Shown in pieces: positions 22,387-26,077 of a DNA stretch of 64,000 nucleotides; position 1 is the first letter of the stretch; every line of letters starts with the position of its first letter. The stretch spans positions 2,377,501 through 2,441,500 of the forward strand of contig NZ_CP061205.1 of the NCBI RefSeq assembly GCF_015240255.1, given 5' to 3'. The position numbers were made by a program, and so were the translations under genes. The notes below the pieces were generated by a model. The model saw only the letters and a list, made by a program, of their open reading frames with translations. It was not told the origin of the DNA and did not search any database. Origin of the DNA: Kordiimonas pumila (GTDB lineage: Bacteria > Pseudomonadota > Alphaproteobacteria > Sphingomonadales > Kordiimonadaceae).

Positions 22387-25002
22387 TTGCGTTTATTTAT
22401 ATTGCGTTTGATAGTGCGTTCATTTGTAACGCTTGTTGTTGGGGGAACCGTTCTTTCTGGTGTTGTGGCCGCACAACAAGTTCCAGATGGGCGTCAAATG
22501 CCGGTAATTCGGCAAATCAGCATCAGCGGTAATGAGCGGGTAGAACCTGAAACCATTGCATCTTACCTGACGGTAACGGCAGGAGATCCCTTTGATCCGA
22601 CGCAACTTGACCAAAGTTTGAAGAATCTTTTTGCAACCGGTTTGTTTTCGGATGTTGAGTTTATTGAAAACAACGGCGGGCTTGTTGTTAAAGTTGTTGA
22701 AAACCCCATTATCAACCGGATTGTTTTTGAAGGTAACAAGAAACTTGACCGGGATGATATGTTTGAGGAAGTGCGTATTCGTCCTCGTATGGTCTTTACG
22801 CGCGCAAAAATCAGGTCAGACGTTAAGCGTATAATGGAGCTTTATCGTCGGTCGGGCCGTTTTGCTGCGATTATTGAACCAAAAGTTGTACAGCTTGAGC
22901 AAAACCGCGTTGATGTGATTTTTGAAATTCAAGAAGGTCCAAAAACCAAGGTTAGCAGCATTAACTTTATGGGGAACAAGGTATATAGTGACGGTGATTT
23001 GCGGGATGTTCTCGCTACTAAAGAAGCGCGTTGGTGGAAAATCTTTACATCAAACGACACTTTTGATCCCGATCGCCTTGCTTATGATCAGCAGGTTCTG
23101 CGCAATCATTACCTAAACGAAGGCTATGCAGACTTCCGAATTGTCTCTGCGGTATCTGAGCTTACCCCAGACAGGGAAGATTTTTTTATCACATTCTCTG
23201 TTGAGGAGGGTGAGATATATGAGTTTGGCAAAATTGATGTTGAAAGCGAAATTCGTGATGTTGAGCCGTCTCTGTTAAAGGCATTTTTGTTAATGCGTGA
23301 AGGCATGACATACAACGCCGAAGCAATTGAGAAGACGATCGAATCCCTGACAAATGCAGCTGGCCTATTGGGATATGCGTTTGTGGATGTACGTCCTCAG
23401 ATCAAACGCGACCGTGAAACGCGTAAAATTGATATCACGTTTAAAGTGCTTGATGCCCCGCGCGTATATGTAGAGCGCATCAACATTAAAGGAAACGTGC
23501 GCACCCTTGATCGGGTTATTCGCCGTGAATTCCGCTTGCAGGAAGGTGATGCTTTTAACTCGGCGCTGGTAACACGCTCTGAAGATCGTGTTAAACGCCT
23601 TAGTTTCTTCCGTGAAGCGGAGATTGAGCGTGTTCAAGGTTCAGAACCTGACCGCATGGTACTGGATGTAACGGTTGAAGAACAAGCAACGGGTGAACTT
23701 AACCTTGGTGCTGGTTTCTCGAGCTTAGAGAACTTTATTTTCGATTTCTCGATCAGAGAACGCAATTTCATGGGGAAAGGACAGGACTTGCGCCTTGGCC
23801 TTCGGATGTCTGGCACGCGTCAGGAAATTGACCTTGGCTTTACAGAGCCTTACTTCATGGGCCGCCGCATTGCTGCAGGCTTTGATCTGTTTGCCCGTCG
23901 GGTTGATAGCTCAAGCTATGGTTCACTCTTTGATACCAAGTCTATCGGCTTCTCGTTGAGGGCAGGGATGGCACTGAATGAGTTCTGGACACTGTCCACA
24001 CGCTACACGCTGCGTCAGGACGACGTAACAATTCCTGATAGTGTTATTACAAACTCTTTGGGTTCAGGTGTTTTCGATCGCTATTTAACAAATGCACAAT
24101 CCTTGTTGACGGATGATAATCCCAATAATGATCAGGCAGCCTTTGACAAATATGATCTTGACGGCGACGGTGATATCGACCTTGATGACTTTGATATCAA
24201 TAATGACGGCGATACAAGCATCAGTGAAATGGAGCGCGTTAGCCTTAGTCGTTCGTTCGTGGAATCTCTTGGTAAGCGCTATCAGTCAATTCTTGGATAT
24301 TCTGTTGGTTTTGATACACGTAATAGCTATATTAGGCCAACGCGGGGCAGCAGCTTTTACTTCCACCAAGACTTTGCTGGCCTTGGCGGCGATGTACGCT
24401 ACCTTAGAAACCGGATTAACTTTGATAACTACTGGACACCTTGGTCTGGTTGGACTTTCCGTTTGGGCGGTGAAGCTGGCATGATTATGGGTCTGGGTCA
24501 GGATGTTCGTTTGAACGATAAATTCTATATTGGTGGACCGCGTATGCGTGGTTTTGATACTTCAGGTATTGGCCCTCGTGACTTTAACGGTGGTTCAACC
24601 AGTAATAGTGGCTCACTTGGGGGTACAGCCTTCTATATTGGCCGTGCGGAACTATTCTTCCCACTTGGGGATATGGCACTCGAAAGCGGGATCAGCGCTT
24701 CAACCTTTGTTGATGTTGGCTCCTTGTTCCGTGCAAAAGATGATTCTCTTGCCGAGTGTCAATTTAGTCAGTCTGACTATGATTCGTATCAATTGGCACT
24801 GGAAGATGATTCTACAACCACATTTGGTTATGATACTGATTGTCTATCTGGGAACTCTCCATCACCAAGGATTGCAGTTGGTATTGGTTTCTCTTGGCAG
24901 TCACCATTTGGTCCATTCAGGATTGATTTGGCTAAAACAGTTAAAAAGCAGTTGGGCGACAGGTCTCAGACGTTGCAGTTCAATGTTGGAACCACATTCT
25001 AG
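22387..25002 (+). CDS. bamA: outer membrane protein assembly factor BamA, with EF-hand-like insertion
   Basis: Central barrel of the BAM complex that folds outer-membrane proteins. The 871-residue precursor has a signal peptide (about residues 1-30, cut after VAAQ), five POTRA domains (about 35-430; starting IRQISISGNERVEPETI) and a C-terminal 16-strand barrel. It contains the conserved RMRGFD segment of barrel loop 6 and ends in aromatic Phe. The TTG start at 22387 follows GAAAAG. Unusual: residues 590-616 inside the barrel contain two adjacent EF-hand/dockerin-like calcium loops in an Asp/Asn-rich insertion. skp and fabZ follow; lpx genes are absent. Confidence 0.96.
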   Translation: MRLFILRLIVRSFVTLVVGGTVLSGVVAAQQVPDGRQMPVIRQISISGNERVEPETIASYLTVTAGDPFDPTQLDQSLKNLFATGLFSDVEFIENNGGLVVKVVENPIINRIVFEGNKKLDRDDMFEEVRIRPRMVFTRAKIRSDVKRIMELYRRSGRFAAIIEPKVVQLEQNRVDVIFEIQEGPKTKVSSINFMGNKVYSDGDLRDVLATKEARWWKIFTSNDTFDPDRLAYDQQVLRNHYLNEGYADFRIVSAVSELTPDREDFFITFSVEEGEIYEFGKIDVESEIRDVEPSLLKAFLLMREGMTYNAEAIEKTIESLTNAAGLLGYAFVDVRPQIKRDRETRKIDITFKVLDAPRVYVERINIKGNVRTLDRVIRREFRLQEGDAFNSALVTRSEDRVKRLSFFREAEIERVQGSEPDRMVLDVTVEEQATGELNLGAGFSSLENFIFDFSIRERNFMGKGQDLRLGLRMSGTRQEIDLGFTEPYFMGRRIAAGFDLFARRVDSSSYGSLFDTKSIGFSLRAGMALNEFWTLSTRYTLRQDDVTIPDSVITNSLGSGVFDRYLTNAQSLLTDDNPNNDQAAFDKYDLDGDGDIDLDDFDINNDGDTSISEMERVSLSRSFVESLGKRYQSILGYSVGFDTRNSYIRPTRGSSFYFHQDFAGLGGDVRYLRNRINFDNYWTPWSGWTFRLGGEAGMIMGLGQDVRLNDKFYIGGPRMRGFDTSGIGPRDFNGGSTSNSGSLGGTAFYIGRAELFFPLGDMALESGISASTFVDVGSLFRAKDDSLAECQFSQSDYDSYQLALEDDSTTTFGYDTDCLSGNSPSPRIAVGIGFSWQSPFGPFRIDLAKTVKKQLGDRSQTLQFNVGTTF
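24154..24228 (+). other. paired EF-hand-like calcium loops inside bamA
   Basis: Codons 590-602 encode DLDGDGDIDLDDF, matching the EF-hand/dockerin loop pattern D-x-D-x-D-G-x-I-x-x-x-[DE]-F. Codons 603-614 encode a second 12-residue loop, DINNDGDTSISE, that fits except for Thr at the usual hydrophobic position 8. They lie in an Asp/Asn-rich stretch (about residues 575-620) between barrel strands, so they probably form an extracellular or periplasmic loop. Calcium binding is inferred. Confidence 0.75.
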
Positions 25003-25030: not shown

Positions 25031-25621
25031 ATGACGTTACGTAAAAAACTTCGCCTGATGGCTACAGGCATCGTTGCAGCAATGGGGCTGACACTCACTG
25101 TCGCGGCACAGCAAATTTTAACTATTGATAACGACCGTGTAGAAAACGAGGCAGCAGCTCACAAGGATTTCAACCTTCAAACGGCTGACATTCGTGACCA
25201 AATTTTGCAGTATCGTAATTATATTGGTCGTGGCGGCCTGCTTGAGCAAAAACTGGCAGAACTTGAAAAGCAAAAGTCTATTATCGGGAATGATAAATAC
25301 GAAGCTGAAGCGAAAAAGCTTCAGGAAAATTATATGCAGATCAATCAGTCTTTGCAGGCTTTGGAATATGCTTTCGATAAAATTCGTAAAGAGGCGCTTG
25401 TTCAGGTAGAACGTGCCCGTCAGCCGGTATTGAAAAAAATCCTGACGGAACGTAAAGCACAGGTTATTTTGCCAAAACGCCTTGTAATGGATAGTGCTCC
25501 AGGCCTTGACGTTACAACTGAGTTTATCGAACTTCTGGATGCTGAACTACCATCAGTTAAGCTTACGTTGCCACAGCGCGTGCAACAGCAAGCTCCAGAA
25601 GGCAGTGAAGGCGGCCAGTAA
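25031..25621 (+). CDS. skp: OmpH/Skp family periplasmic chaperone
   Basis: Chaperone that holds unfolded outer-membrane proteins in the periplasm before BAM insertion. The 196-residue protein has a signal peptide (about residues 1-30, ending TVAAQQ), followed by a long charged helical, coiled-coil-prone region (residues about 60-130; LEQKLAELEKQKSIIGNDKYEAE is representative of its composition). ATG 25031 is 28 bases after the bamA stop, with AGGGAACGGGA upstream. A longer frame from 24530 is an out-of-frame overlap with bamA. Its place between bamA and fabZ supports the call. Confidence 0.87.
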   Translation: MTLRKKLRLMATGIVAAMGLTLTVAAQQILTIDNDRVENEAAAHKDFNLQTADIRDQILQYRNYIGRGGLLEQKLAELEKQKSIIGNDKYEAEAKKLQENYMQINQSLQALEYAFDKIRKEALVQVERARQPVLKKILTERKAQVILPKRLVMDSAPGLDVTTEFIELLDAELPSVKLTLPQRVQQQAPEGSEGGQ

Positions 25622-25639
25622 TCTGGTTGTTTAGCCGTT

Positions 25640-26077
25640 ATGGAATATAATATTGCAGATATAATGAAGGCGATACCGCACCGGTATCCCTTTCTGCTTA
25701 TTGATAAAGTTGTTGATTTAGTACCAGGCGAAAGTGCTATTGGTATTAAGAATGTAACTATTAATGAGCCATTTTTCCCGGGGCATTTTCCGCAAAAACC
25801 GGTTATGCCCGGTGTGCTTATACTTGAAGCTATGGCGCAAGCTGCGGGTATCCTTGCTATAAGCAAGCTAGGTGCTGATGCTGAAGGTAAGGTCGTCTAT
25901 TTTATGGCGATCGATGAGGCTAAGTTTAGAAAGCCGGTTGTGCCTGGTGATCAATTACGTATGCATATCACCACTATTCGTGGGCGGGGTGCTGTGTGGA
26001 AGTTTCAAGCAGTGGCGAAAGTGGACGAACAGGTTGTTGCTGAAGCAAAACTTACAGCAATGATGGCGGCAGAATAA
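25640..26077 (+). CDS. fabZ: 3-hydroxyacyl-[acyl-carrier-protein] dehydratase FabZ
   Basis: Dehydrates beta-hydroxyacyl-ACP in fatty acid elongation. The 145-residue hotdog-fold protein shows [12 protein letters not shown], the catalytic His49 in [11 protein letters not shown] and the catalytic Glu63 in [11 protein letters not shown]. It starts 18 bases after skp. In most alphaproteobacteria lpxD separates skp from fabZ and lpxA follows; here neither is present, and two terminators come directly after fabZ. Confidence 0.96.

Follow-up and report, generated by a model that had tools for sequence, protein, structure and literature searches.

Why should a BamA protein, that of Kordiimonas pumila, carry two consecutive loops of EF-hand type in its outer-membrane barrel, and what might such loops do at the surface of the cell? 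We approached this question by asking where the loops lie in the protein, what they resemble, how they are distributed among relatives, and which explanations of their role the evidence favours.

The bamA gene and its enlarged loop L4

Within the window (the whole stretch of 64,000 nucleotides that was analysed), the open reading frame at 22387-25002 had been read as bamA, and this identification holds. Its product matches TIGR03303 at 738.8 bits (curated cut-off 297.15; E = 7.2e-222) and contains, according to Pfam, five POTRA stretches followed by Omp85, for which 16 barrel strands were counted in the predicted model. These features, together with the RGF of the L6 motif found in the translation, are shared with the BamAs of E. 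coli and others covered by TIGR03303. By comparison with the other alphaproteobacterial BamAs read here, the protein differs in an L4 enlarged with two calcium-type loops and in an L7 with a Cys pair, neither of which is usual there. The gene is clustered with dxr, rseP, fabZ and an OmpH-like gene whose 25.1 bits stay under the Pfam cut-off (32.4); citrate synthase and gltX are encoded on the opposite strand, and the genome is a single 4.04-Mb contig. Among named relatives, the nearest are Kordiimonadaceae MAGs and Kordiimonas species, for example K. laminariae (74%), and on this basis family f1 of the genome search was equated with Kordiimonadaceae. The features discussed below are as follows.

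22387..25002, + strand: bamA coding sequence, 871 aa, TTG start as listed (open reading frame, TIGR03303, POTRA/Omp85 matches)
23986..24030, + strand: barrel strand 7, residues 534-548 (model strand 495-509)
24031..24270, + strand: L4 with the family-specific insertion, residues 549-628 (between model strands 7 and 8, segment lengths)
24070..24102, + strand: predicted L4 helix, residues 562-572 (model H523-533, helix also in the insertion-alone model)
24121..24153, + strand: predicted entering helix, residues 579-589 (model H540-550, insertion-alone H36-46)
24154..24189, + strand: calcium-type loop 1, residues 590-601 (sequence, Pfam, pattern counts, conservation)
24190..24192, + strand: spacer F602, a single residue, F in 22/27 family rows
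24193..24228, + strand: calcium-type loop 2, residues 603-614 (sequence, pattern counts, conservation)
24220..24243, + strand: predicted exiting helix, residues 612-619 (model H573-580, insertion-alone H69-75)
24271..24315, + strand: barrel strand 8, residues 629-643 (model strand 590-604)
24730..24867, + strand: L7 with the family-wide Cys pair, present in 27/27 family rows (between model strands 13 and 14)

The structure model covers residues 40-871 and was built with 15 sequences (mean pLDDT 75.2; model numbering plus 39 gives query residues). Its 16-strand barrel superposes on that of E. coli BamA with Z about 36 and an rmsd of 2.3-2.5 (for 6fsu, Z 36.2 and rmsd 2.5 over 342 residues). The stretch 549-628 connects strand 7 to strand 8 and thus corresponds to extracellular loop L4, which agrees with the initial proposal of an insertion within an extracellular barrel loop; confidence across the insertion is 71-84 in 10-residue means. 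In this model L4 is predicted to lie at the surface and to begin with helices, which are followed by loop 1, a helical turn of four residues, loop 2 and a further helix. Modelled alone, the insertion gave a weak structure (mean pLDDT 66.8) that is too low in confidence to judge ion geometry. A Foldseek search of PDB with it returned no significant match and only two matches in all, both EF-hand chains, at E 7.6 and 9.7; one of the two (VIA) aligned to this low-confidence insertion-alone model with Z 2.1 and rmsd 3.9 over 57 residues.

The segment at 24154-24228, to which the initial annotation had drawn attention, encodes BamA residues 590-614 and reads DLDGDGDIDLDD-F-DINNDGDTSISE; the region is real, and its codons run from 590 to 614 rather than to 616. 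It consists of two EF-hand-type loops, each with its full 12 residues, and a single Phe between them (12+1+12). Loop 1 has the consensus residues D1, D3, D5, G6, I8 and D12, in line with the exact pattern match claimed for it. Loop 2, which had been described as merely close, carries D1, N3, D5, G6 and E12, its position 8 being Thr, and hence has the full ligand set too, so that both loops have the length and the canonical ligand positions of an EF-hand loop.

The profile search that had been proposed as a check was carried out with Pfam. The isolated segment matches Pfam EF-hand_5 at E = 1.5e-4, though with 21.5 bits it stays under the curated cut-off of 25.9 (the best EF-hand scores of the query are 21.5-21.7 bits), and Dockerin_1 is absent among the Pfam matches of the query. 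Scanning at a lenient E<=10 covered 22 of the 27 family rows, the set also used for alignment A2, from which the near-duplicates L015, L058 and L061 and the divergent L026 and L027 were omitted; EF-hand_1 and EF-hand_6 match all 22 (best E 1.6e-7), and Dockerin_1 matches 12 of them (best E 2.2e-5). A profile of the segment reaches EF-hand proteins of the PDB via the first loop.

With EF-hands (PF00036, PF13405, PF13202, PF13499) the segment shares D1, [DN]3, D5, G6, [IV]8 (in loop 1), [DE]12 and flanking predicted helices, and it differs from them in its sub-cut-off Pfam score and in the single residue between the loops. Each loop of a canonical pair has its own entering and exiting helix, and the two pair across a linker. 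Here only the short helical turn lies between the loops, and the predicted helices precede loop 1 and follow loop 2. Since one residue separates the loops, neither a four-helix EF pair nor a dockerin repeat can form. A canonical EF-hand pair is ruled out by this spacing, which excludes the exiting helix of the first hand and the entering helix of the second. Dockerin type I (PF00404) consists of two loop-helix repeats of about 22 residues each and is ruled out by the loop-to-loop period of 13. The description of the segment as a paired EF-hand or dockerin is therefore not supported, and the insertion modelled alone has no significant PDB match.

The same layout was met in a different protein. 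A 7165-aa ORF of genome G862 (L195) contains back-to-back calcium-type loops with identical 12+1+12 spacing, and two of its segments match TSP_3 weakly and under the cut-off (E = 0.0023 and 0.041). A thrombospondin type 3-like bacterial repeat such as this shares its layout with the query, which differs in lacking a TSP family match, in a variable position 9 and in its flanking predicted helices. None of the 22 BamA members scanned at E<=10 had PF02412 or PF18884 (thrombospondin type 3, TSP3_bac) among its matches, and position 9 of loop 1 is T in 12, D in 7, E in 5, N in 2 and L in 1 of the 27 family rows instead of a fixed Asp; membership in this repeat family is ruled out on these grounds, although the spacing agrees with that of L195. 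Judged by their sequence, then, the loops are EF-hand-like and their layout is repeat-like. According to the available part of an earlier survey, Dx[DN]xDG motifs arose repeatedly in unrelated proteins, and many of the proteins concerned have a relative in which a short, motif-free loop takes its place (PMC3123361); this picture of motif gain, as far as that text goes, fits the family pattern in BamA L4 described below.

Distribution, conservation and history in the family

We compared the segment q540-q637 between 27 family rows, one per Kordiimonadaceae genome with a readable BamA, and 124 non-family rows, among which L065-L068 and L070 mean that one species could count twice. The segment measures 98 residues in the query and 85-109 in the family rows, against exactly 32 residues in 89 of the 124 others, where the longest has 64, and none of the 27 family BamAs read lacks the enlargement of L4. 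With a loop pattern that requires Gly at position 6, so that near misses (L014 and L015 in loop 1) are counted as single-loop, 24 of the 27 have one full loop or more in L4 and 18 have the full tandem, whereas both counts are 0/124 in the other rows. A strict loop with a hydrophobic position 8, in either loop, occurs in 22/27 family rows and nowhere in the protein in any of the 124 non-family BamAs; a looser pattern applied to whole proteins found one match among these 124, in L151 and outside L4. The initial view that EF-hand loops are unusual for BamA is supported in the BamAs sampled. By the same pattern that requires Gly at position 6, three family rows have no full loop (L004, L027 and L058, the last being Kordiimonas laminariae, with degenerate loops) and six more have no full tandem, which means that the feature is not indispensable.

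The sequences came from two sources. In the relatives sample, BamA was read from 56 of the 57 genomes with a match (the partial G048 was left out), and two family genomes without a BamA match in that search, G022 and G024, are outside the 27; merging identical sequences left 61 rows including the query. The class control provided BamA from 90 of 109 matching genomes, the organism's own genome, G032 (already included) and 17 lower-scoring or partial matches being omitted. A profile of the insertion was searched against order, class and phylum samples, which overlap and are not exhaustive. Its BamA-length matches were confined to the family in the order sample (25/396 genomes; the family genomes G022, G024, G025 and G026 gave no match at that threshold), to the organism's own genome in the class sample (1/385) and again to the family in the phylum sample (3/398). 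The remaining matches were two in the order sample, to ORFs of 238 and 248 aa, and five in the phylum sample, to ORFs of 75, 257, 364, 1271 and 7165 aa; five of these seven were examined, all but G858 and G1117. No other copy of the insertion turned up in the query genome, the next best match after BamA having an E of 0.147.

Some BamAs outside this pattern deserve mention. One sequence from a MAG titled Kordiimonadaceae (L067, JABIPV010000398.1) has a plain 32-residue L4 and is nearest to the rows of family f8 (73% identity, against 47% to the query), so that title and family label may disagree and the title may be misassigned. In BamAs of family f5 (L050, L052-L056) the L4 insertion is of a different kind and shorter; a Cys pair occurs in 6/6 and a DxDGDG or DxNGDG motif in 4/6, and these BamAs are long in L7 too. 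Differing kinds of L4 enlargement therefore occur within the order. In another family, L179 (genome G398, in which LpxC is present) shows DTDGDG between two cysteines in the corresponding BamA L4 region, possibly an independent calcium-type loop.

Could the tandem simply reflect an acidic loop? An Asp/Asn/Gly-rich stretch might resemble EF-hands by composition and bind no metal; the sub-threshold Pfam scores and the occurrence of a D-x-[DNS]-x-[DNS]-G hexamer by itself in 12 of the 90 class-sample BamAs are what such a coincidence would lead one to expect, and acidic regions are prone to Dx[DN]xDG motifs (PMC3123361, available part). The strict 12-residue loop, however, is found in 0 of those 12 hexamer-bearing proteins, and 200,000 composition-preserving shuffles of the query L4 segment produced a strict single loop in 0.72% of cases and the tandem in none. 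At the 12 positions fixed beforehand by the EF-hand consensus (1, 3, 5, 6, 8 and 12 of both loops), the mean entropy over the 27 family rows is 1.07 bits, compared with 2.46 bits at the other 13, which contradicts random Asp/Asn substitution without conserved positions in relatives, the outcome named at the outset as grounds for rejection. Random choices of positions were as low in 6 of 200,000 draws, or in 5 of 200,000 without three near-duplicates, frequencies that are not exact probabilities given that related rows are not independent. An 11-position set chosen after seeing the entropies gave 0.95 against 2.47 bits. The ligand codons point the same way: D590 is Asp in 25/27 family rows (GAC 13, GAT 12), D601 in 25/27 (GAC 14, GAT 11), and E614 is Glu in 24/27 (GAA 15, GAG 9). 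Ligand positions that are conserved amid variable sequence while their Asp codons switch freely between synonyms look selected, and this points to selection at the level of residues rather than composition. A chance origin of the tandem is ruled out by the shuffles and the conservation together, and we regard a metal-free coincidence as very improbable.

The insertion had also been suspected of being recent, a suspicion that its presence in 27/27 family BamAs does not bear out. In a tree of 43 BamAs built without L4, of which 24 come from the 27 family rows and 19 from outside the family, a fully supported branch (100/100) sets the 24 family rows apart, making the family one supported clade. 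Tandem rows are mixed with single-loop and degenerate ones, even in the query's own supported five-row clade, inside which L004, with no full loop, is placed. A single gain when the family arose or soon afterwards, followed by erosion of loops, fits these data as the simplest account. The deepest family pair, L026 and L027, has one loop and none, respectively; the tandem may thus have arisen later than the insertion that carries it.

Overall, the initial observation is confirmed and is stronger than had been stated, and the interpretation attached to it is partly supported. Among the titles listed for open-licence papers on BamA or Omp85 with EF-hand or calcium loops and on the Kordiimonas outer membrane, none concerns calcium loops in BamA. 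BamA and EF-hand-type loops are themselves known; what is new is their combination, a double loop of calcium type that sits in L4 of BamA and is both conserved and family-specific.

The cysteines of L7 and the lipid A context

The only two cysteines of the query BamA, C791 (24757-24759) and C819 (24841-24843), both lie in L7, which belongs to the same predicted dome as L4. The pair is present in all 27 family rows and in 3 of the 34 others in that alignment, and from its position we presume a C791-C819 disulfide.

The membrane around this BamA is probably unusual as well. Neither LpxC nor LpxB was found in the genomes of the relatives sample, all of the same order (0/59 each), whereas LpxC was found in 93 of 115 class-sample genomes, with 22/115 giving no match; the LpxC and LpxB models both detect their targets in 4 of the 14 genomes used as controls, including E. 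coli and Caulobacter. In the usual gene order, lpxD, lpxA and lpxB come after bamA, an OmpH-like gene and fabZ; at 25031-26077 of the window, none of lpxD, lpxA and lpxB follows bamA, the OmpH-like gene and fabZ. With LpxC and LpxB not found, the outer membrane of the organism is probably without ordinary lipid A, and the searches suggest the same across the order. Sphingomonads are known for having glycosphingolipids in place of lipid A; among open-licence papers, none was found that treats lpxC and sphingolipids of Sphingomonadales together. As a cause of the tandem, LPS loss was rejected: other LpxC-less families of the order have no tandem and mostly a short L4, so LPS loss is a context and not a sufficient cause.

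A proposed calcium-rigidified lid and the alternatives to it

Taking these results together, we infer that L4 is a constitutive surface lid on BamA made rigid by Ca2+, a reading that draws on sequence and model and to which we assign a probability of roughly 0.62. L4 would pass from a short helix into two back-to-back calcium-binding loops (12+1+12) and leave through a second helix, with one Ca2+ per loop, bound by the side chains of loop residues 1, 3, 5 and 12. This acidic stretch would be unfolded as long as the protein is in the cytoplasm, where calcium is scarce; on export to the calcium-rich exterior, two ions would rigidify L4 into a compact cap over the barrel mouth, beside a Cys-clamped L7. 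The lid would be constitutive and self-stabilised, displaying variable residues around a fixed ion core, and in Kordiimonadaceae the ions of L4 and the disulfide of L7 would together stiffen the dome over the barrel. Calcium in seawater is nearly constant at about 10 mM, far above the usual affinities of EF-hands, so the sites would always be filled, which favours structure over sensing and makes stabilisation of L4 by marine calcium plausible. With regard to marine adaptation, we note the degenerate loops of K. laminariae. A structural model of a different BamA shows the barrel opening covered by a dome that consists of loops 4, 6 and 7 (PMC10478084). In E. coli, the binding of MAB1, an inhibitory antibody, is disrupted by the H555Y change in L4 of BamA, and BamA surface epitopes become more accessible when LPS is truncated (PMC6287456).

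An ion-stabilised L4 might instead serve as a docking platform for a surface partner, in analogy to Flavobacterium johnsoniae, where, in the available text of PMC12611786, 76 extra residues of BamA L5 form the platform for BamM, a protein with seven modelled calcium ions. This is, as far as that text extends, the closest precedent for enlargement of a BamA surface loop: both cases combine a clade-specific enlargement with calcium at the outer face, and they differ in that the F. johnsoniae insertion is in L5 with the ions in the separate BamM, whereas in Kordiimonadaceae the calcium-type loops are inside L4 of BamA itself (PMC12611786). The L4 insertion is similar in size to that of L5 and clade-specific in our samples. 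No candidate partner is known, however, and the non-core positions of L4 vary between species (mean entropy 2.24 bits), unlike a conserved interface, for which reasons we consider docking unlikely. Regulation is more doubtful still. Calcium coming on and off at L4 could shift a lid or gate of BamA and thereby tune outer-membrane protein insertion to the environment, as the EF-hand type of the loops might lead one to think; against such a switch stand the near constancy and excess of marine calcium and the degenerate or missing loops of several members. E. coli BamA can be inhibited from outside via L4 (PMC6287456, available part); a calcium-responsive switch is possible but unsupported. We think it improbable that the idea extends to a calcium-gated insertase, in which two Ca2+ in L4 and a disulfide-clamped L7 would open or lock the lid and let assembly sense calcium in an LPS-free membrane.

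Much the same improbability attaches to the proposal that L4 is a variable decoy or shield, changing under phages, grazers or contact toxins, with the Asp-rich core as its minimum scaffold. The insertion is indeed variable, since outside the 11 core positions its 69 positions average 2.24 bits compared with 1.15 for residues 452-871, and the loop changes in length. Yet loop variability is usual for outer-membrane proteins, no attacker is known, and a decoy by itself leaves the conserved ligand positions unexplained. The constitutive, calcium-rigidified lid is thus the reading that we prefer.

BamA is the central, conserved factor of outer-membrane assembly, and its surface loops are targets of antibodies and antibiotics; a clade with calcium-type loops in L4 offers a natural test of extracellular lid function. 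The back-to-back layout without the inner helices of EF-hands is a structural question in itself, and the Kordiimonadaceae inform both how calcium loops become grafted into barrels and how BAM works in an outer membrane that is probably without lipid A.
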